Part shown: positions 20,086 through 63,790 of the stretch, in pieces | Layout of the letters: the number at the start of each line of letters is the position of its first letter | Position numbering within the stretch: position 1 is the stretch's first letter | From: Janthinobacterium silvisoli | Lineage (GTDB): Bacteria > Pseudomonadota > Gammaproteobacteria > Burkholderiales > Burkholderiaceae_D | NCBI RefSeq assembly: GCF_014200725.1 | Contig: NZ_JACHCL010000001.1 | Span: 1-64,000, forward strand | Direction of reading: 5' to 3' | Length of the DNA stretch: 64,000 bases | The notes under the pieces: model-generated | Told to the model about the DNA's origin: nothing | The model's input: only the letters and a program-made list of their open reading frames with translations | Database searches by the model: none | Position numbers and translations under genes: made by a program

Positions 20086-20099
20086 TTGAGCGCAATCAA
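20086..20099. promoter_or_regulatory. FNR/ANR-type palindrome between tviB-like gene and prsT
   Basis: TTGAG-CGCA-ATCAA matches the FNR/ANR consensus TTGAT-N4-ATCAA at nine of ten fixed positions. Its centre is 91 bases before the prsT ATG. A weak -10-like TACTCT (20122-20127) would place a transcription start about 41 bases from the centre, the classic position for activation. Role as operator is inferred. Confidence 0.5.
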
Positions 20100-20183
20100 T
20101 GAGATCGACGCCCATCTTTTTTACTCTAGAGCTTCCCTTTTCCTTTCCGTTCTTTTCTGCGCGCGTCCCCACCGGAGATTTCC

Positions 20184-22976
20184 ATGGCCCTGGCCTGTTC
20201 GCCCTCGCACCGTATCCTGCCTGCCATGGCCTTGTGCGCCATCTTGCTGCCAGGTCTGTTGACCGCCTGCCATGGCACGCAAAGCAGCGACAGCCTGCTG
20301 GCCGACGCGCAGCAATACCGCCAGAAGGGCGAGGCACGGGCCGCCATCATCCAGTTGAAGAATGTCTTGCAGAAAGATCCGGAAAACAGCCAGGCACGCC
20401 TGCTGCTGGGCGATATCTATATCGAAACAGGCGAAGTGTTGTCTGCCGAGAAAGAGCTGCGCAAGGCCAAGACCCTGGGCGCGCCTGCCGGGCAAGTGAT
20501 GCCCTTGCTGGGCAAGGCCTGGCTGATGCAAGGCCAGTTCGACAAGGTCTTGAGCGACTTGCCCGATGAGGCAGCCCAGCCGCAGTCCAGCCCGCAGTCC
20601 ATCCTCTCATTGCGCGGCCAAGCCTTGCTCTCACTGGGGCGGCAGGATGAAGCGCGCGCCTTGTTTACACGCATGCTGCAGGCCCAGCCCGGGCAGACGG
20701 ACGCCCTGCTGGGCCTGGCGCGCATCGCCGCGCTGGACCAGCAAGTGCCGCAAGCCGAGTTGCTGGTCGCGCAAGTGCTGAAGCATCAGCCCGCCAATCT
20801 CGAGGCGCTGCGCCTGCAGGGGGACCTGCTGCGCCTGCAAGGCAAGCGTGACGCCGCGCGCCAGGCTTACGCGCAGATCATTCAGTTCAAGCCCACCAAT
20901 ACGCAAGCCCACATCGACCTGGCCAACCTCGATATCGAGCAAACACGTTACAAGGAAGCGAGCGAGCAACTGGCGGCGGCCCGCAAGACGGCGCCCGACA
21001 ATGTGGGCCTGCTGCAGACGCAGGCGCTGCTCGATTTCCGGCAAGGCAAAAACAAGGCGGCGCTGGAAGCCTTGCAACTGGTGCTCAAGGTAGCGCCCGA
21101 GCATATGCCGGCCGTGCTGCTGGCAGCCGCCGTGCAACTGGCGCTGGGCTCGCCACAACTGGCGGAAGGCTATCTGCAGCGCTTTCTCGCCGTCTATCCG
21201 CAGCACTTGTATGCCAACAAGATGATGGCGTCGATCCAGCTCTTGCGCGGCAACCCCGATGCAGCCATCGACCTGTTGCTGCCGCTGCTGAAAACGGCTC
21301 CCGACGACGTGGAACTGCTGTCGCTGGCAGGCGAAGCACATTTGCGGGCGCGCCGCTACGACAAGGCCAGCGCCTACTTTGAAAAGGCCAGCCTGCTGGC
21401 GCCCGACACGGCCAAGCTGCATGCAGCGCTGGGCGTAAGCCGCCTGGGCATGGGCGAAACGGGACGCGCCATTAATGAACTGGAGCGCGCTACCGTACTC
21501 GATGGCAAGATGCCACAGGCCGGCGCCATGCTGGTGCTGACCTTGCTGCGCAACAAGGAAAATACCAAGGCCCTGGCCGCCGTGCAAAGCATGGAACGGC
21601 AACAAGGCGGCAATCCGCTGTTGCTGAACCTGAAAGGCGGCGTCTACCTTGCCCTGCAAGACTATCCTGCGGCGCGCGCTGCTTTCGAGCAGGCGCTGCG
21701 CCTGTCCCCCGCCTACCTGCCAGCACTGTCCAACCTGGCGCAAATCGATCTGGCCGAAAAGCAGCCGGAGCGGGCCAGGCAGCGCTTCGAGGCAGCCCTG
21801 GCAAAAGATCCGAAAAATGCCGGAATCAGCTCGGCGCTGGCCAAGCTGGCGGCGGCGCAGGGCAAGCTGCCCGAGGCGCAGCGCTGGCTGGAAAAAGCCC
21901 ACGCAGATAATCCGGACGCCTTGCCGACGGTCCTGCTGCTGAGCAACTTCTATCTGCAGACAGGCGCGCCGCAAAAGGCCCTGGCGCTGGCGCGCACCGT
22001 ACAGAGCAGCCATCCCGGCGATGTCGATGCGCTGGCCTTGCGGGCCCAGGTGGAATACAGCGCGGGCCAGCTGCAGGCAGCGCTCGACAGTTATCAGCAA
22101 CTGGCCACAGTGCAGACCACATCCGCGCCCTTGCAGATGCGCATCGCCAGCCTGCAGCTGGCCTTGAACGACCAGGCCAGCGCACTGCACGCCGCGAAGC
22201 GGGCGCAAGTGCTTGATCCCGGTCTGCTGGACGCCCAGGTGATCGAGTCCAGCCTGCAACTGGCCATGAACCGCCCGCGCGAAGCGCTGGCCGTCGCCCG
22301 CAAGATACAGCAGCAACGGCCCAGGCTGGCGGCTGGCTACAAACTGGAGGGCGACGTGCTGATGGTGCAAAAGCAGCCACAGCAGGCATTCAAGCTGTAT
22401 CAACAAGCCTTTCAGATCAGCAATATCGGCCCGCTGCAGGTGCAGATGTACAAGGCGCTGCGCCAGGCGGGACAGGACAAGCAGGCCGATCAAGGCATGG
22501 CGGAATGGCTGGCGGCGCATCCGGACGACATGGCCACGCGCAGCTACCTGGCTGGCAGCAAGCTGGCCAGCAAGCAATACCGGGCTGCCATCGAACACTA
22601 TCAGCACATCATTGCCAAGGATAGTGGCAACGTGGTGGCGCTGAACGACCTGGCCTGGGCTTACCAGCAAGAAAAGGATAGCCGCGCACTGGCCACGGCC
22701 GAACAGGCCCACAAGCTGGCGCCCGAGAATGCTGCCGTACTCGATACCCTGGGCTGGATCAGCCTGGAACAGGGCGACGTCAAGCGGGCCACAAGCTTGC
22801 TGCGCAAGGCAGCCGGGCTGGCGCCGAAGTCGCCGGAAATCCAGTATCACCTGGGCGTGGCGCTGGTGAAATCAGGCGACAAGCCGGGAGCCCGCAAGCA
22901 ACTCGAACAGTTGCTTGCCAACACCAAGGAATTCCCGCAGCGGGCCGACGCGCAAGCCTTGCTGGCCCAGCTATAG
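20184..22976 (+). CDS. prsT: PEP-CTERM/XrtA system TPR-repeat lipoprotein PrsT
   Basis: A 930-residue outer-envelope lipoprotein consisting almost entirely of tetratricopeptide repeats after a signal with lipobox LTAC (Cys29). The length and the opening DSLLADAQQYRQKGEARAA, with a short helix-repeat ladder to the end, match the TPR lipoprotein (TIGR02917) that marks exosortase A loci. It is thought to scaffold polysaccharide or PEP-CTERM protein export; the molecular partner is unknown. ATG 20184 follows CGGAG. It heads an operon with the O-ligase-like gene three bases downstream and a secreted protease. An FNR-type site lies upstream. Confidence 0.9.
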   Translation: MALACSPSHRILPAMALCAILLPGLLTACHGTQSSDSLLADAQQYRQKGEARAAIIQLKNVLQKDPENSQARLLLGDIYIETGEVLSAEKELRKAKTLGAPAGQVMPLLGKAWLMQGQFDKVLSDLPDEAAQPQSSPQSILSLRGQALLSLGRQDEARALFTRMLQAQPGQTDALLGLARIAALDQQVPQAELLVAQVLKHQPANLEALRLQGDLLRLQGKRDAARQAYAQIIQFKPTNTQAHIDLANLDIEQTRYKEASEQLAAARKTAPDNVGLLQTQALLDFRQGKNKAALEALQLVLKVAPEHMPAVLLAAAVQLALGSPQLAEGYLQRFLAVYPQHLYANKMMASIQLLRGNPDAAIDLLLPLLKTAPDDVELLSLAGEAHLRARRYDKASAYFEKASLLAPDTAKLHAALGVSRLGMGETGRAINELERATVLDGKMPQAGAMLVLTLLRNKENTKALAAVQSMERQQGGNPLLLNLKGGVYLALQDYPAARAAFEQALRLSPAYLPALSNLAQIDLAEKQPERARQRFEAALAKDPKNAGISSALAKLAAAQGKLPEAQRWLEKAHADNPDALPTVLLLSNFYLQTGAPQKALALARTVQSSHPGDVDALALRAQVEYSAGQLQAALDSYQQLATVQTTSAPLQMRIASLQLALNDQASALHAAKRAQVLDPGLLDAQVIESSLQLAMNRPREALAVARKIQQQRPRLAAGYKLEGDVLMVQKQPQQAFKLYQQAFQISNIGPLQVQMYKALRQAGQDKQADQGMAEWLAAHPDDMATRSYLAGSKLASKQYRAAIEHYQHIIAKDSGNVVALNDLAWAYQQEKDSRALATAEQAHKLAPENAAVLDTLGWISLEQGDVKRATSLLRKAAGLAPKSPEIQYHLGVALVKSGDKPGARKQLEQLLANTKEFPQRADAQALLAQL

Positions 22977-22979
22977 ATA

Positions 22980-22997
22980 ATGAGCATGAGCATGAGC
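22980..22997 (+). repeat. Triple ATGAGC hexamer at the start of the O-ligase-like gene
   Basis: Three tandem ATGAGC units encode MSMSMS and supply several in-frame start codons (22980, 22986, 22992, then ATG at 22998, 23004 and 23013). Changes in unit number would keep the frame. Confidence 0.75.
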
Positions 22998-25415
22998 ATG
23001 GCGATGGCCAGCATGGCAGCGCGCCTGCTGGCCTTGCTGGCGGGCGCTGCCTTTGTCTACGCGCTGCGTTTTTATCCATTCGGCCACGGCTGGCCCAGCT
23101 GGCTGTTCGCCGCCTTGCTGCCGATCTATTTCCTGCTGCTGTGCTGGCGCCCCCCGCTTTGGCTGTTTTGCCTGCCAGCGCTATTACCTGTACTCGACCT
23201 GGCGCCCTGGACAGGCTGGTTTTTCTTCGAAGAAATCGACCTGCTGCTCTTGCTCACCGTCGCCTGCGGCTACTGGCAATGGCACAAGAGCCCCCCCTCC
23301 ATGCGCATATCGCCCGCCGCCCGCGCATGGCTGCTGCTGTGCTGCCTGGCCTGGCTGGCGGCGCTGCTGCGGGGCTTGCTGCCGCTGCCGCCCCTGGACG
23401 CCAACGCCTGCAATAATTACCTGAGTTCCTGTAACAGCTTGCGCCTGGGTAAAGCCTGGGCCTGGGCCATGCTGTTGCTGCCCTTGCTGCTGCGCGATGC
23501 GGATCAGCATGGCGTGCGCCGCTACGCCTTGCCCGGTGTATTGACGGGCCTGGCGCTAGTGGCCGGCTGTGCGTTGTGGGAACGGGCAACGTTTCCCGGC
23601 CTGTTCAATCTGTCCAGCGATTACCGCATCACGGCGCCGTTTTCTGCCATGCATACGGGCGGCGCCGCCCTCGATGGCTATCTGGCGCTGGCCCTGCCGA
23701 TTGCCGTGCTGTGGCTGGTGCGGGCGCGCTCGCGCTGGCAAAGCGCCGCCGCCCTGCTGCTACTGGCGCTGACCTTGCATGCCGCGCTGGCCACATTTTC
23801 GCGCGGGCTGTATGCAGCCATGCTGGCGGCAAGCTTGCTGGGCCTGATCCAGGCGTTTACCGGTATTCCACTGGCCCAGCGTGTAGAAAAACAAGCGAGA
23901 GGCGGCCGCACGGCGCTGTCCCTGCTGCTGGCGACCGCCGTGGCCATCATCCTGGCCGCCACCTTCAGCGCCGCCGGCTACCGTGGCTTGCTCGCTGCCG
24001 TGGTCCTGCTCAGCGCTTCCTTCGTGCTGGCGGCACAAGCGCTGCCGTGGCGATTGGCGCCCGCCAGCGTCGCGTGCGCACTGGCCATCGAAGGTCTGCT
24101 GGCCATGCTATGGCCAAGTGCAGTCGATGGCTGGCTGAAAGCGCCTTATTTCCTGTTTTTATTGTCGGCACTACTGCTGAGCGGGGCATTATGGCCAAGG
24201 ATGACAGCACACAAGCAGACCTGGAATTGCCTCGCGATGATGGCGTGGACCATGCTGGCCTGCAATCTTGCCTGGATCGGCTGGCACTGGGCCGGTAAAC
24301 CAGCCCTGCCCTCGGCCGCCCTGGCGGTGCTGCTGGCCGCCTGCATGCTAGGCAACCGCCGCCTTTGCCCGCCGTTGTGGCGTTTGGGACGCGGCAGCCT
24401 CAGCCTGGCAGGCGCGGCAGCCGTGCTGCTGTCGCTGGCGATTCCCATTTCAGCCAGCTATTACGCCAACGAACGCTTCGCTACCAGCGCCGGCGACTTG
24501 CAGGGCCGGCTGCGCCACTGGCGGCAAGCGCTGGACATGATGCCGTCGGACTGGGCCAGCCAGACTGCCGGCATGGGCCTGGGCACTTTTCCCGCCACGT
24601 ACTTTTGGCACAACCCCTTGCGCGATGTGCCAGCCCGTATTTCCTACCTCGATGAAGGCGGTAACCGCTACCTGCGCCTGGCCAGCCCCGGCTATAGCGC
24701 AGGTTATGGCGAATTACTGAGACTGTTGCAAAGGATCACCGTGCTGCCGGACACCGCTTATGTACTGGCCATGGACGCGCGCCGCACAGAAGCCATGCCC
24801 GTGCTGCAAGTACGGCTGTGCCAGCGGCAACTGCTGTACGCGCAAAATTGCATCGCTGTTCCCTTGCGCTTGCGTCCGGGCGACGGCCAGTGGCAACACT
24901 ATGAACTGGCCTTTAATAACGCCGGTCTGGGTGCCGGCAACTGGCTGCTGCGCCCGCCAGTACAGCTGGAACTGGCCGCCAGCGGCACGGCCAGCTCGTC
25001 CGTGATCGATATCGATAATCTCAGCCTGCGTGGAGCCGATGGTCTGGAACGCATCAGTAACGGGCAATTCACGCACGCCAACAATGCCTGGTTTTTCAGC
25101 AGCGACCATCATCACTTGCCCTGGCATATCAAGAACCTGCTGCTGCAACTATACCTTGAGTCAGGCGTGTGCGGCGTGCTGGCGATGCTCGGTTTGCTGG
25201 TACTGGCCGCTTCCCGCTTGTTGCGCCAGCGCAAGCAAGATCACTCCAGCGTGGCCATCCTGGCCGCCATCCTCGCTTTCCTGGTGGTGGGCCTGTTCGA
25301 CAGCCTGCTCGACGTACCGCGCATCGCCCTGCTGTTTTACCTGCTGCTACTGGTCGCACTGTTGCAGCCGGCCAGCCCCACCCCGCTACCGCACCATGAA
25401 AGGGCGCCGCCATGA
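22980..25415 (+). CDS. O-antigen ligase/Wzy-like membrane protein with inserted carbohydrate-binding-like domain
   Basis: An 811-residue inner-membrane protein with about a dozen hydrophobic segments, probably polymerising or attaching polysaccharide in the periplasm. The Wzy/WaaL core is marked by ATFSRGLYAAML (271-282) and by RLRHWRQALDMM...GMGLGTFP (510-537). Between about 553 and 697 the usual periplasmic loop is enlarged by a soluble beta-rich segment with YLRLASPGYSAGYGEL, WQHYELAFN and VIDIDNLSLRG, resembling a CBM4/9 jelly-roll. The loop then closes with the ligase-type HHHLPWHIKNLLLQLYLESG. It starts three bases after the prsT stop and overlaps the protease start by ATGA. Which substrate it joins is unknown. 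Confidence 0.78.
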   Translation: MSMSMSMAMASMAARLLALLAGAAFVYALRFYPFGHGWPSWLFAALLPIYFLLLCWRPPLWLFCLPALLPVLDLAPWTGWFFFEEIDLLLLLTVACGYWQWHKSPPSMRISPAARAWLLLCCLAWLAALLRGLLPLPPLDANACNNYLSSCNSLRLGKAWAWAMLLLPLLLRDADQHGVRRYALPGVLTGLALVAGCALWERATFPGLFNLSSDYRITAPFSAMHTGGAALDGYLALALPIAVLWLVRARSRWQSAAALLLLALTLHAALATFSRGLYAAMLAASLLGLIQAFTGIPLAQRVEKQARGGRTALSLLLATAVAIILAATFSAAGYRGLLAAVVLLSASFVLAAQALPWRLAPASVACALAIEGLLAMLWPSAVDGWLKAPYFLFLLSALLLSGALWPRMTAHKQTWNCLAMMAWTMLACNLAWIGWHWAGKPALPSAALAVLLAACMLGNRRLCPPLWRLGRGSLSLAGAAAVLLSLAIPISASYYANERFATSAGDLQGRLRHWRQALDMMPSDWASQTAGMGLGTFPATYFWHNPLRDVPARISYLDEGGNRYLRLASPGYSAGYGELLRLLQRITVLPDTAYVLAMDARRTEAMPVLQVRLCQRQLLYAQNCIAVPLRLRPGDGQWQHYELAFNNAGLGAGNWLLRPPVQLELAASGTASSSVIDIDNLSLRGADGLERISNGQFTHANNAWFFSSDHHHLPWHIKNLLLQLYLESGVCGVLAMLGLLVLAASRLLRQRKQDHSSVAILAAILAFLVVGLFDSLLDVPRIALLFYLLLLVALLQPASPTPLPHHERAPP

Positions 25416-26161
25416 AAACCCTGCTGCTATGCCTCTGCTTCATGTTGACGCCAGCCCATGCAGATACCCTGGAACAAGTGATCGCCAGGGTCAAACCCGC
25501 GATCGTCGGCATCGGCAGTTTGCAACCGACGCGCGCGCCGGCCATCAGCTTCATCGGCACCGGTTTCGTCACCGGCGATGGCTTGAGTGTGCTGACCTGC
25601 GCCCACGTGATGCAGAAATTGCTGGACGCCAATCCGGGCGAACAGATCGGCATCCTTACGGGCCACGGCGATAGCGCCCGCTTCCGCCCCGCCAAGGTGC
25701 AGGCGATCGATATGGAACACGACCTGGCGCTGCTGCGCCTGGCCGGGGAACCACTGCCTGCCCTGCAGCTGGGCGACGCCGGCAGCGTGCGCGAAGGCCA
25801 GGCCATGGCCTTCACGGGTTTTCCGCTAGGCATACTACTGGGCTTGCATCACGTCACGCACCGCGCCACCGTGTCTGCGCTCACGCCCGTCGTCATGCCC
25901 AGCGAAAACGCGCAGCGGCTGGACGCCAGGCGCCTGGCGCAGCTGCAAAAATCGCCCTACACTGTGTTCCAGCTCGATGCGACAGCATATCCGGGCAGCA
26001 GCGGCAGCCCCTTGTATGATCCTGAAACCGGTCTCGTCTACGGTATCGTCAACATGGTGTATATCAAAGGATTGAAAGAAAGCGCCATCAGCACGCCCAG
26101 CGGCATCAGCTATGCCATTCCAGGTCTGCACATGCAGGCGCTGCTACTCAAAAACCAATAG
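25412..26161 (+). CDS. Periplasmic trypsin-like (S1C-like) serine protease in the exosortase operon
   Basis: A 249-residue secreted protease: a short signal peptide ending TPAHA (about residue 17), then a chymotrypsin fold with candidate triad His65 (LTCAHVM), Asp104 (MEHDLALLRL) and Ser197 (YPGSSGSPLY). There is no PDZ domain, so it is shorter than DegP/DegS. The start overlaps the stop of the O-ligase-like gene (ATGA), so it is translated together with it and with prsT. Likely role: processing or quality control of envelope proteins of this pathway; that is inference. Its stop lies three bases from the stop of the convergent acyltransferase gene. Confidence 0.8.
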   Translation: MKTLLLCLCFMLTPAHADTLEQVIARVKPAIVGIGSLQPTRAPAISFIGTGFVTGDGLSVLTCAHVMQKLLDANPGEQIGILTGHGDSARFRPAKVQAIDMEHDLALLRLAGEPLPALQLGDAGSVREGQAMAFTGFPLGILLGLHHVTHRATVSALTPVVMPSENAQRLDARRLAQLQKSPYTVFQLDATAYPGSSGSPLYDPETGLVYGIVNMVYIKGLKESAISTPSGISYAIPGLHMQALLLKNQ

Positions 26162-27125: not shown

Positions 27126-27746
27126 TTAAAACAGGCTTTCGGGGATCAGCAGCACGTCGCCGGGCCGCATCATGACGTTGGCAGAAATATCGCCATCTTT
27201 CAGCAAGTCATCGATACGCACGCGCAACTGCTGTTGCTTGCCTTCCCGCACGCGGATGATGCTGGCCTTGTTGCCTGCTGCAAAATCGGTAATGCCGCCC
27301 ACGGTGATCAGCACATCCATCAGCGACATGCCCAGCCGGTAAGGCAGCGCCTGCGGCTTGGCCGCTTCGCCGATCACCCTGATCTGTTCCGCGTAGGGCC
27401 CGGAAAAATTGGTGACGATCACCGTCACCACCGGTTGCTGGATGAACTTGCCCAGCGCCTGTTCGATATCACGCGCCAGCTGGGTCGAGGTCTTGCCGCT
27501 GGCCGGCAAGTCTTCCACCAGCGGCGTGGTGATCTTGCCGTCGGGCCGCACCGCCACCGTCAGCGACACCTCGGGGTTGCGCCAGACAAGGATATTGACG
27601 GAGTCCCCCGGCCCGATCAGGTAGTCGTGCAAGGGAACAGGATCGTCAAATGGCGCCAGCGCGTAGCGCGTGCGGCAACCCGCCAGCACACCCGCTGCCG
27701 CCAGGGCCAGCATCTTTCCCAGCATTGCACGGCGAAACGGAATCAT
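27126..27746 (-). CDS. XrtA/PEP-CTERM-associated polysaccharide export lipoprotein (Wza-like)
   Basis: A 206-residue outer-membrane polysaccharide export protein of the short, exosortase-associated kind (TIGR03027). The lipobox is LAGC (Cys24). The export domain begins with DYLIGPGDSVNILVWRNPEVS and contains VRPDGKITTPLVEDL; the SLBB-like part follows with GGITDFAAGNKASIIR and ends MRPGDVLLIPES. It lets polymer cross the outer membrane together with the chain-length protein. Unlike the usual arrangement it is not in the same operon as the chain-length gene but divergent from it; the 248-base intergenic region carries an FNR-type palindrome. Confidence 0.9.
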   Translation of the reverse strand: MIPFRRAMLGKMLALAAAGVLAGCRTRYALAPFDDPVPLHDYLIGPGDSVNILVWRNPEVSLTVAVRPDGKITTPLVEDLPASGKTSTQLARDIEQALGKFIQQPVVTVIVTNFSGPYAEQIRVIGEAAKPQALPYRLGMSLMDVLITVGGITDFAAGNKASIIRVREGKQQQLRVRIDDLLKDGDISANVMMRPGDVLLIPESLF

Positions 27747-27846
27747 GCGGGCCCTCTTCGAGTCGATGGAGCGGTCATCAGGCCGCCAGGATTAGCCAGG
27801 CTGGGCCGCGAACTTCCTATGATTATTAAAACGCGGCAAGTGATCC

Positions 27847-27860
27847 TTGAGGCGTATCAA
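27847..27860. promoter_or_regulatory. FNR/ANR-type palindrome before the chain-length operon
   Basis: TTGAG-GCGT-ATCAA, nine of ten fixed positions of TTGAT-N4-ATCAA. It lies in the divergent region between the export and chain-length genes. A TATACT (27900-27905) downstream would give a start roughly 60 bases from the site centre, near the upstream-activator position known for FNR. Operator role is inferred. Confidence 0.5.
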
Positions 27861-27994
27861 GAGGCCTTCATCTGAGGAAATTTTTCTAGCAAGCAGTCCT
27901 ATACTTTGCTTACTCGACAAGAGAAAAGTTCCCGGCCATAGGCGCGACCAAGCGATTGATTGTTACCTGAAGGAAGCGATATGGAGGTTGCGAC

Positions 27995-29524: not shown

Positions 29525-29543
29525 ACCCAGGCCCGGAGGCATC

Positions 29544-31923: not shown

Positions 31924-31935
31924 GGAGACACTGCC

Positions 31936-35002: not shown

Positions 35003-35004
35003 CC

Positions 35005-49175: not shown

Positions 49176-49277
49176 GGGGCGTCCTGGTTGGATTGCGCAG
49201 GCAAAATCAATTGCCGCATGTCAAAACGCCATCATAGCGTATGCCCATGCTTGCACGCTACACACGAAGTCAAGACC

Positions 49278-50468: not shown

Positions 50469-50470
50469 GG

Positions 50471-53096: not shown

Positions 53097-53115
53097 GGTG
53101 ATCCTTTCAAGGCAT

Positions 53116-54579: not shown

Positions 54580-54600
54580 GGCGCGGTCCGGCCGGGCGCG

Positions 54601-56685
54601 CTACACCAGTCCCGCATAAAAGCCCCGCAATTGCTGCTCCAGCCTGCGCATGGAATAACGCTGCTCCGCCTCGATCCTGGCCTGCCTGCCCATCTCGCTG
54701 CGCCGTGGTCGGTCTTGCAGCAAGGCGGCCACGGCCTCGCAAGCCATCTCGGCATCATCGAGCGGCAGCAGCAAGCCGCCGCGGCTGCCACGCAAAATAT
54801 CGCTACTGCCTGGCACATCGGTGCCCACGGCCGGCACGCCACAGGCCATCGCCTCGATGGTGGAAATACCAAAACCTTCATTTTTACTGAGCAGCAGATG
54901 CAGGTCGAAGGCCGGCATCAATAAGTCGATGCGCTGCTGGAAGCCGGTAAACAAGACGCACCCGCCCAGCCCTGCGGCCTGGACTTGCAGCCGCAGCATC
55001 GCTTCCAGCGGCCCCGTGCCGGCCAGCACCAGATACAGGTTTGGGAAGCGCGGCTGCAAGCGGATAAACAGCGCCAGTAGTTCCTGCGGCCGTTTTTGCG
55101 CCGACAGCCGCGCCACCGAGCCGAGCACCAGCGCGTCTTGCGGCAAGCGCAGCTGCCGGCGGGCTTGCTCGCGCCGGGCGAGCGACACGATGAAACGGTC
55201 CGTATCGACGCCATTCGGTATCACGGCCAGCCGCGTGCCGGGCGCCAGCCAGTCGCGGTACAGGGCCAGGAAGTGCTGCATGGATGAGAGCGAGACGGCG
55301 TACACGCCCTTCACGCCGCGAAACGCTTCGCGCATCAACGGTTGCTGCCAGGCGCTCAAGGTTTCCAGCGGGAAGGCATTGTGCACGCTGATCACGGTAG
55401 GCAAGCGGCACTGCCTGGCTTGCCACAGGATGGACGCGCCATAGGTAGTCCAGCAAAACGCCACATGCACCAGGTCGGGCCGGTAGCGCCGCAGCCGCCA
55501 GGCGCCCAGCAGCTTGGCACGCAGCAAGTTTACCCTGCGCCATGCCCAGTGCTCGATGAATAGCGGCGGCTCGTAAATACTGACCCGCAACTGCTCCGCT
55601 TTCAAGCCTTGCGCCCAGGCCTGAAAACCGGGAAAGCGGCGCAGCGCCAGCATGCTGTGGTAACCGGCCGCGTCCAGCACGCGCGCTTCCTGCGCCATGC
55701 GCAGCTCCATGCCGCCCAGCTCGCCGGAATAACTGCTGATCACGATACGGGGCAGCCGCTTGCGCCGTCCCCGCCAGGCTTCATGGAAAAAGCCGCGCAA
55801 GGAGGCCATTTCCCAGCGCCGCTGGAACAAAGCCTCCCGGTCGCGCCGCAACCAGTCGGACACGCTACCTGCCAGGTGGCGGACATATAGTCCCAGCATC
55901 CAGCGGGGCACTCCCAGCAGCTCCACAGTTTGCTCGGGCATATGCAGCCGGCACTTGCCCCGTCCAAACAGATAGGCGCGGTGCACTATCCAGGCCATGT
56001 CTACCTGATGCGTGCGTATGATATGCGAGACCCTGGCCTGGGGACAAAACCAGGGCAGATGGCCAGACTGGAACATATCCAGGTTCAGGCGCGTTTCACT
56101 GCCCATGGCGTAACTGGCCCCCTTGGGACCGATGCTTTCGTCATAGCGGGCGCCCGTCTCGAACATACGGCGCCGTATCGCCATATTGGCGCCCCATACC
56201 AGGCCTGGATACACGGGACCATCGCGCAGCGCGGGGCTGGTCACGCCCCAGGTCAGGCCCTCCGGTGTCAGGCGCAACAGCCATGGCGCGGGTGGCACCC
56301 GCCAGGCGGGCACGATGGCGCCGCCAAACAGGGCGCGGCCCGGATGCAGCCTTGCACAGTGGACCATGCGGCGCAGCCAGTCGCAGGCGGGAATGGCGTC
56401 ATCGTCGCCAAACATGAACAGGTCGCTGCCATCGCCCATCTGGAGTAAGCCCAGTGCCACGGCGTCGTTCAGGGCGGCGCTCCTGCCGCGCCGCGCCACG
56501 TAGAGCGTGGTGAGCGGCAAGCGTCCATGGAAACGCTGCAGTACGGCGGCCGTGCCATCGCTGCTGCCATTGTCGGCCACGATCAGCCGCCAGCCACCCG
56601 GTGGCGCCTGCAGGGCCGTATAGGCTTGCAGCACTTCGGGCAGGGTTCCAGCGCCATTGTAGGTAGGCATGAGAACGGTCAACAA
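54601..56685 (-). CDS. Fusion glycosyltransferase: GT2 domain plus GT4 domain
   Basis: A 694-residue protein with two glycosyltransferase domains in one frame. Residues about 1-300 are GT2 (GT-A fold): VLMPTYNGAGTLPEVLQ, VADNGSSDG, and the DDD metal motif in FMFGDDDAIP. Residues about 313-694 are GT4 (GT-B fold): IVISSYSGELGGMELRM, AVIPNGVDTDRFI, LVLAGTGPLEAML and LSKNEGFGISTIEAMACGVPAVGT. It may add two successive sugars. It is the first gene of the minus-strand operon and divergent from the O-ligase gene at 56829. Confidence 0.92.
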   Translation of the reverse strand: MLTVLMPTYNGAGTLPEVLQAYTALQAPPGGWRLIVADNGSSDGTAAVLQRFHGRLPLTTLYVARRGRSAALNDAVALGLLQMGDGSDLFMFGDDDAIPACDWLRRMVHCARLHPGRALFGGAIVPAWRVPPAPWLLRLTPEGLTWGVTSPALRDGPVYPGLVWGANMAIRRRMFETGARYDESIGPKGASYAMGSETRLNLDMFQSGHLPWFCPQARVSHIIRTHQVDMAWIVHRAYLFGRGKCRLHMPEQTVELLGVPRWMLGLYVRHLAGSVSDWLRRDREALFQRRWEMASLRGFFHEAWRGRRKRLPRIVISSYSGELGGMELRMAQEARVLDAAGYHSMLALRRFPGFQAWAQGLKAEQLRVSIYEPPLFIEHWAWRRVNLLRAKLLGAWRLRRYRPDLVHVAFCWTTYGASILWQARQCRLPTVISVHNAFPLETLSAWQQPLMREAFRGVKGVYAVSLSSMQHFLALYRDWLAPGTRLAVIPNGVDTDRFIVSLARREQARRQLRLPQDALVLGSVARLSAQKRPQELLALFIRLQPRFPNLYLVLAGTGPLEAMLRLQVQAAGLGGCVLFTGFQQRIDLLMPAFDLHLLLSKNEGFGISTIEAMACGVPAVGTDVPGSSDILRGSRGGLLLPLDDAEMACEAVAALLQDRPRRSEMGRQARIEAEQRYSMRRLEQQLRGFYAGLV

Positions 56686-56730: not shown

Positions 56731-56781
56731 TGTACTGAGCAGTGTACTGAGCCACTCCACCGGCTCCTTGCGCGGCATCAA
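56731..56781. promoter_or_regulatory. Direct repeat and degenerate FNR-like palindrome in the divergent promoter
   Basis: TGTACTGAGC occurs twice (56731-56740 and 56743-56752). Next to it TTGCG-CGGC-ATCAA (56768-56781) has a perfect right half and two mismatches in the left half of the FNR/ANR pattern. The spacing to either gene does not give a good -10 element, so the palindrome is weak evidence alone. Confidence 0.3.
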
Positions 56782-56828: not shown

Positions 56829-58082
56829 ATGCGCGATCTCCTCGTCACCCTCGTGATCTTCGGCTCCCTGCCTTTCATCCTGAAGTCGCCCGCGATTGGC
56901 GCACTGATGTGGGTCTGGGTCAGCGTGATGAATCCGCACACCCAAGGCTGGGGTTTTGCCACGCACTTGCCGTTCGCCTTCATCATCGCGATCGCCACCA
57001 TGTTCAGCCTGCTGATTTCGCGCACGCCCAAAAGCCTGCCGCTGACGCCCATCAGCTTGCTGCTACTGGCGTTTGTTGTCTGGATGAATATCACGGCCCC
57101 GTTTGCGCTCTTGCCCGAAGCGTCCTGGGTGCAATGGAACAAGGTCATGAAGATCATGCTGATGAGTTTTGTGGTGATGATGGTGATACGCACGCGGCAA
57201 GATATTCTGCGCCTGGTCTGGGTGCTGGCCGGCTCGATCGGCTATTACGGCGTGAAAGGCGGCATCTTTACTATCCGCAGCGGCGGCACGGAGCGGGTCT
57301 GGGGACCGGAGGAAACTTTTATCGGTGACAACAACGCGCTGGCCCTGGCCCTGATCATCACCATCCCCTTGATGTTTTATCTACAGCAAAACACCGACAA
57401 ACGCTGGCTGCGCCACGGCTTGAGCGCGGCCATGCTGCTGTCCGCATTGGCTGCGCTGGGCTCGTATTCGCGCGGCGCGCTGCTGGCGATTGCAGCCATG
57501 TGTCTGTTCATGTGGATCAAGAGCGGCAGGAAAGTGGCGCTGGGCGCGGTGCTGTGCCTGCTCACGCCGCTGCTGCTGGCCTTCATGCCCGACCGTTGGT
57601 CGGAACGCATGGATACGATCAATACTTATCAGGAAGACAGTTCCGCGCTGGGCAGGCTGAACGCCTGGCAAATGGCCTGGAACCTGGCGCGCGACCGTTT
57701 CCTGGGCGGCGGCTTCGAAGTGTCCGATCCGGGTATCTTTGCCCGTTATGCACCGAACCCGATGGATGTGCACGCGGCGCACAGCATTTATTTCCAGGTA
57801 TTGGGCGAACACGGTTTTGTGGGCCTTGCAATTTACCTGGCGCTGGGCATCGCCACCTGGCGCGCAGCAAGCCGCATCATCAAGCTCACGCGCAACGCCG
57901 CCGAGCTGCGCTGGGCGCTGGGCCTGGCGACGATGATACAGGCAAGCATGATCGGCTTTGCCGTGGGCGGCGCCTTCCTCAGCCTGCTGTATTTCGACAT
58001 GCCCTATTATTTGATGGCCGTGCTGATCGCCACGCGCATCGTGGTCGAGCGCCAGTTGCTGACCGGGCAAATCCAGTCATGA
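56829..58082 (+). CDS. Putative O-glycosylation ligase, exosortase A-associated (TIGR03097 type)
   Basis: A 417-residue membrane protein of the Wzy/WaaL-like family tied to exosortase A. It has about ten hydrophobic segments. Diagnostic stretches are MRDLLVTLVIFGSLPFILKSPAIGALMW, GYYGVKGGIFTIRSGG, VWGPEETFIGDNNALALAL, the ligase-type LGSYSRGALLAI and AAHSIYFQVLGEHGFVGL. It probably polymerises or transfers the polysaccharide in the periplasm, possibly to protein. ATG 56829 has GCAGAGCAGG before it. Its stop overlaps the deacetylase start (ATGA). Confidence 0.93.
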   Translation: MRDLLVTLVIFGSLPFILKSPAIGALMWVWVSVMNPHTQGWGFATHLPFAFIIAIATMFSLLISRTPKSLPLTPISLLLLAFVVWMNITAPFALLPEASWVQWNKVMKIMLMSFVVMMVIRTRQDILRLVWVLAGSIGYYGVKGGIFTIRSGGTERVWGPEETFIGDNNALALALIITIPLMFYLQQNTDKRWLRHGLSAAMLLSALAALGSYSRGALLAIAAMCLFMWIKSGRKVALGAVLCLLTPLLLAFMPDRWSERMDTINTYQEDSSALGRLNAWQMAWNLARDRFLGGGFEVSDPGIFARYAPNPMDVHAAHSIYFQVLGEHGFVGLAIYLALGIATWRAASRIIKLTRNAAELRWALGLATMIQASMIGFAVGGAFLSLLYFDMPYYLMAVLIATRIVVERQLLTGQIQS

Positions 58083-59014
58083 ACACCGCCAGCCTCTCGA
58101 TCCTGATCTATCACCGCGTGCTGGCCCGGCCCGACCCGCTGTTTCCCGGCGAAGTCGACGCCCGCCTGTTCGAACGGCAATTAAGACTGCTCAAATATTT
58201 TTTCACGCCGCTGCCCCTGCCGCAAGCCTTGCAGCGCCTGCAGGATGGCAGCTTGCCGCCACGCGCGGCCTGCATCACCTTCGACGACGGTTACGCGGAC
58301 AATGCGCAAATAGCCTTGCCGCTGCTGCAAAAACACGGCTTGCACGCAACTTTCTTTATTGCCAGCGGCTATCTGGATGGCGGACGGATGTGGAATGACT
58401 GCCTGATCGACGCCGTACGGCGTGCTCCCGCCCCCCGCCTGGACTTGCGCGAGCTGGGCCTCGATTGCTGGCCTATCGGCACGCTGGCACAGCGCTCTGC
58501 CGCCATCGCGGCCCTGCTGGCCAAACTCAAATACCTGCCGTGCAGGCAGCGCCAGGCGCTGTCGGAACAGGTCAGCCTGCGGGCGGGCGGCTGGCCCGGC
58601 AGGGAAACGGAACCCATGCTGACAGTGGCACAATTGCGGGCGCTACATCAGGCCGGCATGCAGATCGGCGCGCACACGGTGCGCCACCCCATCCTGTCGG
58701 CACTGCCGGAGCGGCAGGCATGCCAGGAAATCGTCGATGGCAAGACCCAGCTGGAACAGTGGCTGCAAACTCCGGTGGATCTGTTTGCGTATCCGAACGG
58801 CAAGCGGGACCGCGATTACGGTGCGCGCCATGTCGCCATGGTCAGGGAACTGGGCTTTACGGCGGCCGTGGCCACGGACTGGGGCGCCAGCCGGCCAGGT
58901 CCGCAGCTGGACCTGTACCAGCTGCCCCGCTTTACGCCGTGGGATCGAGGACGGTTGATGTTTCTGTGGCGGTTGCGGCAGAACCTGCGGCAAACGCCGC
59001 CGGATGCAAGCTGA
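58079..59014 (+). CDS. Polysaccharide deacetylase family protein (NodB)
   Basis: A 311-residue NodB-type deacetylase: ACITFDDGYADN carries the catalytic and metal Asp, ATFFIASGYLDGG follows, and IGAHTVRHPIL carries the metal His pair. No clear signal peptide. ATG 58079 is used because it overlaps the O-ligase stop; the open frame upstream lies within that gene. It is a second deacetylase besides 33075-33920 and belongs to the general PgaB/NodB kind rather than the XrtA-specific one. Its last 83 bases overlap, on the opposite strand, the end of the AsnB-like gene. Confidence 0.9.
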   Translation: MNTASLSILIYHRVLARPDPLFPGEVDARLFERQLRLLKYFFTPLPLPQALQRLQDGSLPPRAACITFDDGYADNAQIALPLLQKHGLHATFFIASGYLDGGRMWNDCLIDAVRRAPAPRLDLRELGLDCWPIGTLAQRSAAIAALLAKLKYLPCRQRQALSEQVSLRAGGWPGRETEPMLTVAQLRALHQAGMQIGAHTVRHPILSALPERQACQEIVDGKTQLEQWLQTPVDLFAYPNGKRDRDYGARHVAMVRELGFTAAVATDWGASRPGPQLDLYQLPRFTPWDRGRLMFLWRLRQNLRQTPPDAS

Positions 59015-60833
59015 GCCATTGCTCCAGCATCATCAGGATCCACACCATGGTACCGTGATACGCCGGGTGTTCCTGCAGCAAACGTCCTTGCAAGTCGGAA
59101 ATGAAGGCGGGCCGCACGATGCCGCGCCGGCGCAGCTGGCTCAGATTATCGAAGGCGAAGTCGCGCAAGCCCGCATGACTGTGCAGCCACAGGCCGAACG
59201 GCAAGCCGAAACCGTGCTTTTTCTTGTGCAGGATCGCATTTGGCAAGGTGCCGGCCAGCGCGCGCTTGAAAAACGGCCGCAGCTGCCTGCCGTGCAACTT
59301 GTCGGCAGGCGCCAGGCTAGCCGCAAAGGCCACCATTTCATCGTCCAGGAAGGGAAAAGCCGCTTCCACGCCGGCCAGCTCACAAGCCTTGCGCACCTTG
59401 GGCAAGTCATTGTCAGCCAGGGTAAAACGCATGTCCAGCGCCAGCAATTGATTAATCTGGCTCAACTTCAAGTCTTGCCGTTGCCAATAGGCGCCGTTCA
59501 GGCAGGCAGGCGCCACGCCGGGGTCGATGGTCTCGATAAAGCCGTCTTCCAGCACCGTGCGGTAGCCATAGCGCTGCAACAGATTATAGCTTTCCATACG
59601 GGCCGGCAAAGGCTGGCTGGCTTGCTCGATATAGCTGCGCAGCTTGTCGGCCAGCTTCCACGGCCTGCTATTGTGCTGGCGGAACAGCAATGGCTCGATG
59701 ACAGCCTGGCGCAGCATCGCAGGCAAGTTTTCATAGCGCGACAGCAAGGCCTGGTGCGCATAACGCTCATTTCCGCCAAACAGTTCATCGCCGCCATCGC
59801 CGCCCAGCAGGCGCGTCACGCCATCCTGGTGCGCCATCTGTGCACAATAAAAGGCGGGAATCGCCGAGGCGTTGCCGAATGGCTGGTCGAATACGGCGGC
59901 CAGTTGCGGGATTGCCTCCAGCACGTCTTCGGCCGTGACATAGCGTTCATGGTGGCTGCTGCCCGTATGGCGGGCGGCCAGGCGCGCATACGCCATTTCA
60001 TCATAGCCGGGCGCATCAAAGCCGATCGAATAGGTGCGCGCGCTCTGGCCCGTCACTTGCGCCATCAGCGCGGCGATGCTGGAACTGTCGGTGCCGCCGC
60101 TCAAAAAGGCGCCCGTGGTTTCCGCATCGCCGCCCAGGCAACGTTCCACCGCCTGCCGCAGGATGCGCAGGAATGCCCGTTCCTGCGCCGCGCCGCCGGC
60201 ATGGGCCGCCTCCTTGAACAGCATATCCCAGTACTTGCCCTTGCACAGCTTGCCCTGCTGTACATGCAGATATTCGCCAGGCAATAATCGCTGCTGGCCC
60301 AGGTAAGCCGTGGCCGGGCCCGGCACCATATGAAAGTACAAATAGTTATACAGCGCCTGCGGATCGAGCGCGGTCCGCACGGCAGGATGGGCCAGCATGG
60401 CATCGTGCGAAGAAGCAAAAAACAGCCCCTGCGCATGGCTGGCATAGCTGAGCGGGTGCTGGCCCGTGCGGTCCACGGCCAGCAAGGCGGTACCTGAAAA
60501 TTCATCGAGGATGGCCAGCGCAAATGGCCCGGACAGGGAAATACAGGCGGCCACCCCCTTGCCCAGCCACAACGGCGCCAGACGGCGCGCCACGTCCAGG
60601 CTGGAGCCGTCCAGTTCGGGCCGACCCCAGATAGCCACCAGTAAACCTTCTTTTTGATACACGTGGCTGGCGCCTGCACAAGCAGCCACGGCCACGGCGC
60701 TGCCATGCCCCGTGCGCAGTTGCACGGGCACCCGGTCGTAGCGGGCCAGCGGTTCCGCCATGGCGGCCAGCACCAGCTCATGCTCTGGCGTACCGTCCCC
60801 GCTCAGGGTCAACCAGCCGCACAGGCCGCTCAT
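58932..60833 (-). CDS. Asparagine-synthetase-like protein with degenerate glutaminase domain
   Basis: A 633-residue AsnB-like protein. The C-terminal adenylating half is intact: PPi loop FLSGGTDSSSIAAL, then LLGGDGGDELFGGNERYAHQ. The N-terminal class II glutaminase domain is recognisable (FASSHDAMLAHPAVRTALD) but lacks the essential residues: Cys is at position 5 (MSGLCGW) instead of 2, and neither RGPD nor NGEIYN is present. It probably does not hydrolyse glutamine but joins an adenylated acid to another amine, as in beta-lactam synthetase-like relatives. Start 60833 overlaps the decarboxylase stop (ATGA). The three minus-strand genes look like one pathway. Confidence 0.85.
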   Translation of the reverse strand: MSGLCGWLTLSGDGTPEHELVLAAMAEPLARYDRVPVQLRTGHGSAVAVAACAGASHVYQKEGLLVAIWGRPELDGSSLDVARRLAPLWLGKGVAACISLSGPFALAILDEFSGTALLAVDRTGQHPLSYASHAQGLFFASSHDAMLAHPAVRTALDPQALYNYLYFHMVPGPATAYLGQQRLLPGEYLHVQQGKLCKGKYWDMLFKEAAHAGGAAQERAFLRILRQAVERCLGGDAETTGAFLSGGTDSSSIAALMAQVTGQSARTYSIGFDAPGYDEMAYARLAARHTGSSHHERYVTAEDVLEAIPQLAAVFDQPFGNASAIPAFYCAQMAHQDGVTRLLGGDGGDELFGGNERYAHQALLSRYENLPAMLRQAVIEPLLFRQHNSRPWKLADKLRSYIEQASQPLPARMESYNLLQRYGYRTVLEDGFIETIDPGVAPACLNGAYWQRQDLKLSQINQLLALDMRFTLADNDLPKVRKACELAGVEAAFPFLDDEMVAFAASLAPADKLHGRQLRPFFKRALAGTLPNAILHKKKHGFGLPFGLWLHSHAGLRDFAFDNLSQLRRRGIVRPAFISDLQGRLLQEHPAYHGTMVWILMMLEQWLSLHPAAFAAGSAATATETSTVLDPTA

Positions 60834-62053
60834 ACCAGCACCTCGGCCGGCAAGGGATGGCTGAGGAAGGCCGTGGGACTGGCCGTCAAACCATACGCGC
60901 CCGACTGGAACACCACCACCAGGTCGCCCGCGTCGGCCCGTGCCATCTCCATCTGGTCGGCCAGCAAGTCCAGCGGCGTACACAGGGGTCCGACCACGGA
61001 TGCCCGCTCGCGTTCGCCGCCATATAAACGGTTGCCGATGGCGACCGGATAATTCTTGCGTATCAGCTGGCCAAAGTTGCCGGACGCGGCCAGATGATGG
61101 TGCAGTCCGCCATCGGTAATAAGAAACACTTGCCCATGCGACAGCTTGCGTTCGATCACCTTGCACACATAAATACCCGCTTCGGCCACCAGATAGCGGC
61201 CCAGCTCGATATTCAGGCGCGTATCGGGCGAGACCGCCTGTAAGCGGTCCAGCTGCCGCTGCAAGCCGTCGGCCAGCGGCGTCAGGTCCAGCGCCTGGTC
61301 GCCAGGAAAATACGGCACGCCAAAGCCGCCGCCAATATTGAGCACGCGCATCGGGCCAGGCGCATGATCGGCCAGGCGCAAGGCCAGTTCCACGCTTTGT
61401 CCCTGCGCTTCGGCCAGGGCCGTGGCCCACAGGTTTTGCGAGCCCGAATAAATATGAAAGCCTTCAAATACCAGTCCCATCTCCGGAATGCGCGCCAGCA
61501 AGGCCGGCACCAGCTCCACATCGACACCAAACGGCTGCGCGCCGCCGCCCATGCGCATGCCGGCGCGGCGCAGGGAAAAATCGGGATTCACGCGTACTGC
61601 CACCCTGCCAGCCAGACCCAGCCGTTCACTGGCCAGCGCCACTCTTTCCAGTTGAGCCATCGACTCAATATTGATCAGCACGCCGGCAGCCACCGCGCAA
61701 GCGAGCTCGCCATCGCCCTTGCCCGGCCCTGCAAAGCTGATGCGCTGCGGTGGCATGGTGGTATCGAGGGCGATGGCCAGTTCACCGCCCGAAGCCACAT
61801 CGATGCCATCGACCAGGCCCGCCAGGCATTGCACCACGGCCGGCATGGGATTGGCCTTCATCGCATAGTGCAGGTGCACAGCAGCCGGCAGCGTGGCCCG
61901 CAGAGCGGCCACGCGGCGCGCGATATGCTGGCGTTCATACGCATAAAACGGCGTGCGGCCCACCCGCTGGGCCAAACGCGTCAGCGCCATGCCGCCCAGC
62001 TCCAGCATGTCGGCATCCACCGCGAACTGCGCCTGCCGTGCATGCGCGATCAT
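60830..62053 (-). CDS. PLP-dependent decarboxylase, exosortase A-associated (TIGR03099 type)
   Basis: A 407-residue fold-type III (alanine-racemase-fold) decarboxylase related to diaminopimelate and ornithine decarboxylases. PLP Lys66 lies in HYAMKANPM; the glycine-rich phosphate site is NIGGGFGVPYF, and the active-site Cys motif is GPLCTPLDLLAD. It likely makes an amine from an amino acid. ATG 62053 overlaps the ligase stop; the longer frame is inside the ligase gene. Its place between the acyl-CoA ligase and AsnB-like gene suggests it supplies an amine for coupling. Confidence 0.9.
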   Translation of the reverse strand: MIAHARQAQFAVDADMLELGGMALTRLAQRVGRTPFYAYERQHIARRVAALRATLPAAVHLHYAMKANPMPAVVQCLAGLVDGIDVASGGELAIALDTTMPPQRISFAGPGKGDGELACAVAAGVLINIESMAQLERVALASERLGLAGRVAVRVNPDFSLRRAGMRMGGGAQPFGVDVELVPALLARIPEMGLVFEGFHIYSGSQNLWATALAEAQGQSVELALRLADHAPGPMRVLNIGGGFGVPYFPGDQALDLTPLADGLQRQLDRLQAVSPDTRLNIELGRYLVAEAGIYVCKVIERKLSHGQVFLITDGGLHHHLAASGNFGQLIRKNYPVAIGNRLYGGERERASVVGPLCTPLDLLADQMEMARADAGDLVVVFQSGAYGLTASPTAFLSHPLPAEVLV

Positions 62054-63657
62054 GGGTGGTCTCCATAGGCGGCCGCCAGTTCGGCCGCCAGCAGCGGCCG
62101 GTCGATCTTGCCGTTCGGGTTGCGCGGCAAGCAATCGCCGCGGATCACGATGTAGACGGGCACCATGTAGGCAGGCAAGCGCAGGCGGCAGGCAGCCAGC
62201 AGCGCATCGCGGCTCAGTTCTACGCCGGGCGCGGCGGTCACCAGCAAGGCGATGGCCGAGCCCAGCACCGGGTGCGGCACACCGAGCGCCGCCGCTTCGC
62301 CCACCAGGCCGCTGGCATACGCTACCTCTTCAACCTCGGCCGGGCTGACGCGATAGCCCGACGTTTTGATCATGTCGTCGCTACGGCCGACAAAATATAG
62401 GTAGCCGTCCGCATCGCGGCGCACCGTGTCGCCCGACCACACGGCCAGTTCCGGCACCACCAGGCCCGTGGCTTGCGGCGGCAAGGGCTTGAAACGCTCT
62501 GCCGTACGGACCGCATCGTTCCAGTAACCAAGCGCTACCAGCGCGCCGCGATGCACCAGTTCACCGGGTTCGTCCGCCTCGCACTCGCTGCCGTCGGGGC
62601 GCAGCACCAGTACTTCAGCGTTCGGGATGGCCTTGCCGATGGAATCGGGCCGCCGTTCCAGCTGTTCCGGCGCCAGGTACGTCGAACGGAACGCTTCGGT
62701 CAAGCCATACATCAGGAAAATCTGCGTGCGCGGCAGGGATAAACGCAAACGCTCGACGCTAGAGCGCTGCATCACGCCACCCGAATTGGTGATGTAGCGC
62801 AGCGGTGAAGACAATGGCCAGCTCAGCTGCGACAACTGTATCCACAAGGGCGGCACGGCGGCCAGGCCCGTGATCGCTTCCTGTTCCACCGTTTCAATGA
62901 TGTCGCGCAGCAGCAGGTAATTCATCAACACGGCGCAGGCGCCGCTGGCAAAAGCTGTCGTCAGCTGGCTCAAGCCATAGTCAAAACTGAGTGGCAAGAC
63001 GCACAGGATGCGGTCTTGCGGCGTGTTGCGCAGATAACTGGCAACGCTGAGCGCGCCGGCCACCATATTACGGTGCGACAAGACCACGCCCTTGGGCCGG
63101 CCCGTGCTGCCCGAGGTGTACAAAATGGCCGCCATGTCGGTGTCGACCACGGCGTGCGGCGCCATCGGGATATCGGCGCCGGCCGCCAGCAAGGATTGCC
63201 AGGCCATCATGGGCAGCGCACTGGCGGGATGCTCATCAAGCTGATTACCCGTGACCACAATGGTGCGCAAGTCCGGACAGGCCGCCAGCGCCGGCGCCAG
63301 CTGGGCCAGCCGTTCGCGCGAGGTGACCAGGATGCTGACGTTGCAATCGGCAAGTATATAAGCGACCTGCTGCGCCTTGAGCAAGGGATTGACGGGCACG
63401 AACACCCCGCCGGCGGCCGCCGTACCAAACATGGCCGTCACATTTTCAGGGCATTTTTCCAGGTAAACGGCGACTCTTTCCGCGCGTCGCAGGTCCAGGC
63501 TCAGCAAGGCGGAAGCGCAGTCGCGCACGCGGCGCGCCAGTGCTGCATAACTGAGCAGCGTTTCCTGGGCCGGGTAGGCAGCGGGATAAGACAAGGCCGG
63601 TGTGCCAGGTGCACGCTGCGCCGCCTCGAAGATAAAGTCATGTACGAATGTCGCCAT
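62050..63657 (-). CDS. Acyl-CoA ligase (AMP-forming), exosortase A-associated (TIGR03098 type)
   Basis: A 535-residue ANL-superfamily enzyme that activates a carboxylic acid as acyl-AMP. The phosphate loop is ILYTSGSTGRPKGVV, followed by FLMYGLTEAFRSTYL, the hinge region GRSDDMIKTSGYRVSPAEVEEV and the catalytic Lys in PRNPNGKIDRP. ATG 63657 follows GGGGCG and gives the family start; the frame remains open 40 codons upstream through the promoter region. First gene of the three-gene minus-strand operon. A perfect FNR-type palindrome lies 120 bases upstream. Acid substrate unknown. Confidence 0.92.
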   Translation of the reverse strand: MATFVHDFIFEAAQRAPGTPALSYPAAYPAQETLLSYAALARRVRDCASALLSLDLRRAERVAVYLEKCPENVTAMFGTAAAGGVFVPVNPLLKAQQVAYILADCNVSILVTSRERLAQLAPALAACPDLRTIVVTGNQLDEHPASALPMMAWQSLLAAGADIPMAPHAVVDTDMAAILYTSGSTGRPKGVVLSHRNMVAGALSVASYLRNTPQDRILCVLPLSFDYGLSQLTTAFASGACAVLMNYLLLRDIIETVEQEAITGLAAVPPLWIQLSQLSWPLSSPLRYITNSGGVMQRSSVERLRLSLPRTQIFLMYGLTEAFRSTYLAPEQLERRPDSIGKAIPNAEVLVLRPDGSECEADEPGELVHRGALVALGYWNDAVRTAERFKPLPPQATGLVVPELAVWSGDTVRRDADGYLYFVGRSDDMIKTSGYRVSPAEVEEVAYASGLVGEAAALGVPHPVLGSAIALLVTAAPGVELSRDALLAACRLRLPAYMVPVYIVIRGDCLPRNPNGKIDRPLLAAELAAAYGDHP

Positions 63658-63776
63658 TGTTTCGCCCCTGTATTTCAACCCTGTTATGGAGCCCCGGCAA
63701 ACGGCTGCGCTCCCCGATGCACAGGCAGACCAGCCCACGCATCCCGCTATGATTGAGAAAAATGACAACACGGACA

Positions 63777-63790
63777 TTGATTTTTATCAA
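63777..63790. promoter_or_regulatory. Perfect FNR/ANR-type palindrome
   Basis: TTGAT-TTTT-ATCAA matches the consensus TTGAT-N4-ATCAA at all ten fixed positions. It lies between the acyl-CoA ligase operon (minus) and the partial gene at 63853 (plus). On the minus strand AATCAT (63754-63749), four of six to the -10 consensus, would place a start 41.5 bases from the centre, the activating position. No similarly good -10 is seen on the plus strand. Confidence 0.6.

Follow-up and report, generated by a model that had tools for sequence, protein, structure and literature searches.

FNR-type boxes at conserved promoter positions suggest low-oxygen control of the exosortase A exopolysaccharide locus of Janthinobacterium

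We analyzed the initial 64 kb of contig C1 (NZ_JACHCL010000001.1) of the 5.90 Mb genome of Janthinobacterium silvisoli, hereafter the window, with respect to FNR-type palindromes (consensus TTGAT-N4-ATCAA) in the promoters of its exosortase A (XrtA) exopolysaccharide locus. According to gene prediction and protein-family searches, this locus extends from about 17.6 kb to beyond the end of the window. It contains genes for an epimerase, a dehydrogenase, PrsT, an export protein, a chain-length determinant, an autokinase, XrtA, glycosyltransferases, an amidotransferase, an O-ligase, an AMP-forming ligase, a decarboxylase and hydrolases 1 and 2; prsR (720 bits) and prsK followed past the window end, at C1:79-82 kb. 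Exosortase A (36165-37790, + strand) was identified by TIGR03109 (341 bits versus a cut-off of 208 bits), with XrtA-associated families alongside. The precursor operon, encoding an epimerase and a nucleotide-sugar dehydrogenase (17567..19965, − strand; TIGR03026, PF01370), is divergent from prsT and two genes downstream of it (20184..26161, + strand; TIGR02917, 827 bits). The XrtA-system export protein (27126..27725, − strand; TIGR03027) is divergent from the operon that includes exosortase A (27995..44559, + strand), which encodes a chain-length determinant, autokinase, outer-membrane protein, epimerase, deacetylase, FemAB protein, glycosyltransferases, exosortase A and amidotransferase (TIGR03007, 03018, 03016, 03006, 03019, 03087, 03109, 03088, 03108 and 04063). 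Glycosyltransferase, flippase, MBOAT and other genes identified by Pfam (48171..56670, − strand), which were assumed to form a single operon, are divergent from a putative XrtA-associated O-ligase (56829..58082, + strand; TIGR03097). A further operon encodes an XrtA-associated AMP-forming ligase, decarboxylase and amidotransferase (58932..63657, − strand; TIGR03098 and TIGR03099 over the cut-off, TIGR03108 below it). A FeeM-like N-acyl amino acid synthase (PF21926) was also found within the locus, at 26165-26911.

The initial annotation of this DNA had described FNR-type sites at 20086, 27847 and 63777, matching the consensus at 9, 9 and 10 of 10 positions, and a degenerate fourth at 56768. 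All four sites were recovered at these positions and with these scores, the 56768 site matching at 8 of 10, and all were located within divergent intergenic regions of the XrtA locus. Each of the four regions held a box conserved across the genus, separated by 21-22 nt from a -10 hexamer that was likewise conserved. A class II site is centred at -41.5 and a class I site at -61.5 relative to the transcription start. Because of the 21-22 nt spacing, the boxes would be centred at about -40.5 to -41.5 of the predicted starts, which is the class II place. The expectation that the boxes are conserved in relatives was borne out at 27847, 63777, 20086 and 56768; in the most diverged loci, the arms were retained and the middle varied, for example TTGACCTGAATCAA and TTGACATGCCTCAA.

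The box at 27847..27860 (TTGAGGCGTATCAA on the + strand) would have the class II place for the export gene on the − strand, with a -10 hexamer AATCAT at 27819..27824 (−), and is followed on the + strand by TATACT at 27900..27905, the predicted -10 element of the chain-length/XrtA operon, for which the box would be centred at about -58.5. We examined 36 genus loci, consisting of 35 genomes with an orthologue plus G063. The core TTGA-N6-TCAA was retained in 36/36, and TATA[AC]T was present at 39-41 nt on the plus strand, again in 36/36. On the minus strand, [AG]ATCAT was found at 21-22 nt in 33/36, AAGCAT in G022 and G014, and no such hexamer in G001. The box was the best-conserved 14-mer of the region across 30 aligned loci (0.955 versus a mean of 0.656).

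The box at 63777..63790 (− strand; TTGATAAAAATCAA on −) is a perfect consensus in the predicted class II place for the ligase/decarboxylase operon, with AATCAT at 63749..63754 (−). The sample comprised 37 of the 40 genus genomes; G034 (partial match) was left out, and no orthologue was seen in G027 or G031. In 36/37 loci, AATCAT was located 22 nt from a box with at most 1 mismatch, and the box was exact in 31/37. The G001 ligase region was the only one of the 37 with no box. On the other side of the same region, a weak box TTGAG-ACAG-CGCAA (63813..63826, + strand) might be a class II site for a + strand operon. It had 3 mismatches in 29/30 loci and 2 in the remaining one, with TCTAAT 21-22 nt away in 30/30, counts that were made without a shuffle control. 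This TCTAAT (63849..63854, + strand) overlaps the ATG assigned as the start at 63853, which makes 63895 the probable start of the gene.

The box at 20086..20099 (TTGAGCGCAATCAA, + strand) would have the class II place for prsT, with TACTCT at 20122..20127 (+), 22 nt past the box. The core was kept in 12/13 Janthinobacterium loci (L068 has TTGCG), and TANNNT was found at 21-22 nt in all 13. Around prsT, these 13 named loci (13.8-22.8 kb each) held 25 cores: 12 upstream of prsT and a further 13 some 6-7.8 kb downstream of it. The latter place was confirmed as the chain-length promoter for 11/13 loci, two alignments being partial. A sequence read by eye in the prsT region of Rugamonas (L080) was TTGTGCCGGATCAA, with TACCCT 22 nt on. 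A weaker box (TTGAG-CAGG-AACAA on the + strand; 20025..20038, −) would have the class II place for the dehydrogenase operon, whose conserved -10 hexamer TAGAAT is at 19998..20003 (−). This box had 2-3 mismatches and TA[GA]AAT at 21 nt in 12/13 loci, the exception being L072, again counted without a shuffle control. At 56768..56781 (− strand; TTGCGCGGCATCAA on +), the degenerate box would have the class II place for the glycosyltransferase operon, with TACACT at 56741..56746 (−). The window's own genome and G012 have TTGCG at this site, and five of six relatives have TTGA-N6-TCAA; TA[CG]ACT was found at 21-22 nt in 7/7 loci.

The initial annotation had held that the core TTGA-N6-TCAA should occur well under once in 64 kb by chance. 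This was correct for shuffled DNA, in which 0.41 matches were expected against the 4 observed and 0/100 dinucleotide shuffles reached 4, but not for the genome's own rate. We counted 204 cores in 5.90 Mb (31 for a reversed control pattern), or 2.2 per 64 kb; at that rate the probability of 4 or more in 64 kb is 0.18, so the number of cores in the window is ordinary. The fourth core, at 50182, is coding by the gene calls and had been overlooked in the initial annotation. The other three of the 4 cores lie in the non-coding 7% of the sequence past base 2700 (P = 0.0013). In the stretches from six relatives (462 kb in total), 25/32 cores fell in the four XrtA regions, including 3/5 of those in G012, as assigned by eye. 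It is the placement and the conservation of the boxes, not their number, that stand out. The contig start (1-2700) is a low-GC segment in which the gene caller found no gene, with 52% GC over the first 4 kb, and may be acquired DNA.

The frequency of the motif in random intergenic DNA was partly checked through the TTGAT/TTGAG-N4-ATCAA sites of the whole genome. According to the gene caller, 41/69 of these sites were intergenic, compared with 19% of the bases in the same stretches; therefore, such sites are used at many promoters besides those of XrtA genes. The window has four more divergent regions, which served as a control, a thin one with few orthologues for each region. Region 8330 had no orthologue in the stretches from the six relatives; regions 45946 (close orthologue in 1 relative) and 47483 (1-3 relatives) contained no conserved box; and region 12568 (prkA) contained a conserved weaker box (8 of 10). 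This last box, TTGAGCGAGATCAG at 12710-12723, precedes a PrkA/DUF444/SpoVR operon. The three relatives that have an orthologue read TTGAGCGA[GC]ATCA[GT] at this site, and TATACT follows after 23 nt in these relatives and after 32 nt here. It is perhaps another FNR-type promoter. Separately, a core TTGACGTGCATCAA was seen in L163 at 14350-14363 (contig position 76350), about 300 nt ahead of a hydroxylase-like gene near prsR; its counterpart in G012 is TTGACGTACATCAA.

The same arrangement recurred in other genera. The family sample contained 145 genomes, with 65 full-length chain-length matches listed outside the genus. Among the first 40 chain-length regions, 14 had a box with at most 2 mismatches at 38-41 nt from a TATAAT-like hexamer, compared with 0.14 expected from shuffles; the remaining 25 gave 2 further matches (L311 and L326), both chance-like. 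Of the 14, L230 and L238 look like chance, as they lack a TTGA arm or have a poor hexamer. Clear chain-length boxes were present in 12/65 regions outside the genus. Among named loci, Rugamonas rubra (L080) and Oxalobacteraceae BJB404 (L073) carried the chain-length box. The closest orthologues in other genera had the box with TATAAT at 39-40 nt in 10/11 cases, often as the exact consensus, and these 10 belong to the 12 clear regions. When read by eye, the two regions with a divergent upstream gene, L214 and L216, showed ATGATT or ATCATT at a distance of 22 nt on the upstream side of the box; neither hexamer was seen there in the others of the 11 closest or in L228 and L232.

Five genomes (G135, G073, G113, G194 and G169) carry two XrtA ligases and two chain-length genes. 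In these genomes, the core box was found at 10/10 promoters of one locus and at 0/10 of the other. The boxed locus comprised chain-length regions L217, L218, L219, L223 and L224 and ligase regions L299-L303, and AATGAT or AATCAT stood at 22 nt in 4/5 of the latter. No core was found in the chain-length regions L306, L308, L305, L233 and L231 or the ligase regions L295, L298, L283, L286 and L285 of the other locus, where the best matches had 2-4 mismatches. Overall, 5/21 ligase regions had a core. Within the genus, the ligase without a box in G001 lies on the same contig as a second, unboxed chain-length gene. We also inspected the putative cargo of exosortase A. The genome contained 24 PEP-CTERM matches over the cut-off, and 4 of these had a core box upstream, at -50, -76, -118 and -314 (L258, L261, L274 and L275), with the exact consensus at L274 and L275; a fifth had a non-core upstream site with one mismatch. 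The probability of 4/24 was about 1e-4 to 1e-3, a value that depends on a rough background estimate of 1-2%.

Nine proteins with HTH_Crp_2 matches over the cut-off were found in the genome, and none was encoded in C1:1-82000. As the initial annotation had supposed, an FNR/ANR-type regulator was among the genes of the genome, namely a [4Fe-4S]-type FNR (G000, C9:57353-58108). It scored 268.8 bits with NF008365 (curated cut-off 228 bits), contains the sequence CSTCSMHQLC (CxxCx5C), aligns with solved FNR structures including the fourth cluster cysteine, and has a recognition helix, IESVSR, that fits the E-x-x-SR pattern. Its orthologue was present in 40/40 genus genomes at 83-100% identity. The gene ccoN is a canonical FNR target, and here ccoN (TIGR00780, 779 bits) was preceded by TTGATGTGGATCAA with TACTCT 22 nt on, the same layout as at prsT. 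The genome also encodes an FNR-like paralogue without the cysteines (L017, C1:1239347-1240168), whose recognition helix ETVSR is similar to that of FNR; it lacks CxxCx5C and remained under the FNR cut-off (157.3 versus 228 bits). A UspA-like gene and a NarL-type regulator gene precede the gene for this Cys-less paralogue, and a core TTGACAATTATCAA is located ahead of this cluster (L165, 1644-4168). A CRP site reads TGTGA-N6-TCACA; the boxes were rejected as CRP sites, their arms being TTGA/TCAA in all conserved loci.

From these observations we consider it probable that the boxes are bound in trans by an FNR-type dimer, most likely the [4Fe-4S] FNR encoded in this genome, which would activate the XrtA operons at low oxygen. 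The dimer would sit in the class II place, centred at about -40.5 to -41.5, of promoters whose -10 hexamer can be recognised. With its cluster intact at low oxygen, FNR would activate the precursor synthesis, PrsT and export operons, and likewise the glycosyltransferase/flippase and ligase/decarboxylase operons. The 27847 box would serve both directions, as a class II site for the export gene and as a class I-like site for the chain-length/exosortase A operon. The initial annotation had proposed one regulator for the precursor, export, assembly and modification operons. The conserved boxes and spacing, the box at one of two loci, the presence of FNR and the ccoN layout all speak for this proposal; that FNR itself binds, that binding activates and that oxygen is the signal are inferences. 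Several observations weigh against this reading. No core was found within 420 nt of prsT in 23/23 named Oxalobacteraceae loci outside Janthinobacterium. The 20025 and 63813 boxes match the consensus at just 7-8 of 10 positions, and the window's own 56768 site does so at only 8. On the + side of 27847, the centre at about -58.5 departs from the standard class I position. The Cys-less paralogue type was present in 16/17 genomes tested, all but G171. In G197, which encodes two of these paralogues but lacks FNR, a 9-of-10 box (TTGACCGATATCAA, at -122) nevertheless precedes the chain-length gene.

The last two points bear on the best-surviving alternative, in which the Cys-less paralogue reads the boxes, either by itself or jointly with FNR; in that case the direct signal would be something other than oxygen, or the paralogue would be a FixK-like second tier under FNR. 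We regard this as unlikely, though it is the rival to be taken most seriously. The paralogue retains the E-x-x-SR helix, its gene cluster is preceded by a core site, and in G197 it occurs with a box where FNR is missing; against it, the classic FNR target ccoN has the same layout as the XrtA promoters. FNR was over the cut-off in 15/17 genomes, with G171 just under it (227.4 bits, CSHCAFKALC) and none in G197. The G171 genome, without the Cys-less paralogue, keeps FNR and a chain-length box with TATAAT at 40 nt, and the G197 box is without the TATAAT layout. For this reason FNR is favoured; it is likely rather than proven, because the Cys-less paralogue could read the same box.

Bcam1349 and Clp are CRP/FNR proteins with other ligands that control polysaccharides. 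By analogy, another CRP/FNR-type protein, for example a c-di-GMP-responsive one, might use the sites, or FNR might repress there. The genome offers candidates among its nine HTH_Crp_2 proteins, and the available text on CRP/FNRKx links such a protein to cellulose (PMC4686702). However, the five other CRP-type proteins with a readable helix showed no E-x-x-SR pattern, and the spacing puts the boxes at the activating class II place and not over the -10 hexamer; we judge this explanation improbable. Slightly less credible still is that PrsK/PrsR and sigma-54 run the operons, the boxes being incidental or minor. The two genes are present near the locus, and PrsR has been linked to sigma-54 elements before PEP-CTERM genes in the accessible part of PMC1569441. 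Against this, -24/-12 elements (TGGCAC-N5-TTGCW, at most 1 mismatch) numbered 5 in the window versus 5.4 expected, with none in the four regions and 0 in L163. In Aquincola, sigma-54 (RpoN1) runs a PEP-CTERM gene, and the exopolysaccharide genes and prsT are apparently independent of RpoN1, as far as the available portion of PMC9850573 reports. Chance palindromes in AT-rich intergenic DNA deserve almost no credence: although the 204 cores of the genome make 4 per 64 kb ordinary, this explanation is contradicted by the conserved footprints, with their fixed spacing, their recurrence in other genera and the box at one of two paralogous loci.

Returning to FNR control, these sequence features suggest that Janthinobacterium ties slime production to low oxygen. 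If true, the matrix of flocs or biofilms would be linked to oxygen, which aeration sets in activated sludge and which declines through any biofilm. More speculatively, and with somewhat less than even confidence, we propose that in Oxalobacteraceae one XrtA lineage, together with some PEP-CTERM cargo, forms a core FNR regulon and that a further XrtA locus of these genomes is outside this control. The polymer and part of its co-sorted proteins would then be made together as oxygen falls, in a family-wide oxygen-to-matrix circuit. Genomes in which one XrtA locus is boxed and the other is not offer an internal control. A literature search, mostly of papers outside subscription journals, did not reveal any description of an exosortase locus under FNR control.

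The mechanism is already known, and its target, the XrtA exopolysaccharide operons, is apparently undescribed. The regulons of Escherichia coli FNR and Herbaspirillum seropedicae Fnr1/Fnr3 share with the present system the TTGAT-N4-ATCAA-type box, the class II spacing (predicted here), a four-cysteine [4Fe-4S] FNR and the ccoN target. In contrast to the FNR/Anr regulons, the targets here are exopolysaccharide and exosortase operons; polysaccharide is mentioned 0 times in the available main text of the paper on the H. seropedicae regulon (PMC5934665). The PrsK/PrsR-sigma-54 system likewise concerns XrtA and PEP-CTERM proteins, and prsT, prsR and prsK are present here (PMC1569441 and PMC9850573, in their accessible parts); in that system sigma-54 elements precede cargo genes, whereas here sigma-70-like -10 hexamers and FNR-type boxes precede the polymer operons. 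In Pseudomonas, the FNR orthologue Anr has likewise been connected with attachment or biofilm (PMC3797731, PMC12459779), apparently through mutant phenotypes in the portions of those papers at hand, whereas here the boxes are on the polymer operons themselves. Finally, Komagataeibacter CRP/FNRKx resembles the present case in that a CRP/FNR-family protein is linked to a polysaccharide operon, that of cellulose, and differs from it, to the extent covered by the available text, in the protein, the signal and the polymer (PMC4686702).

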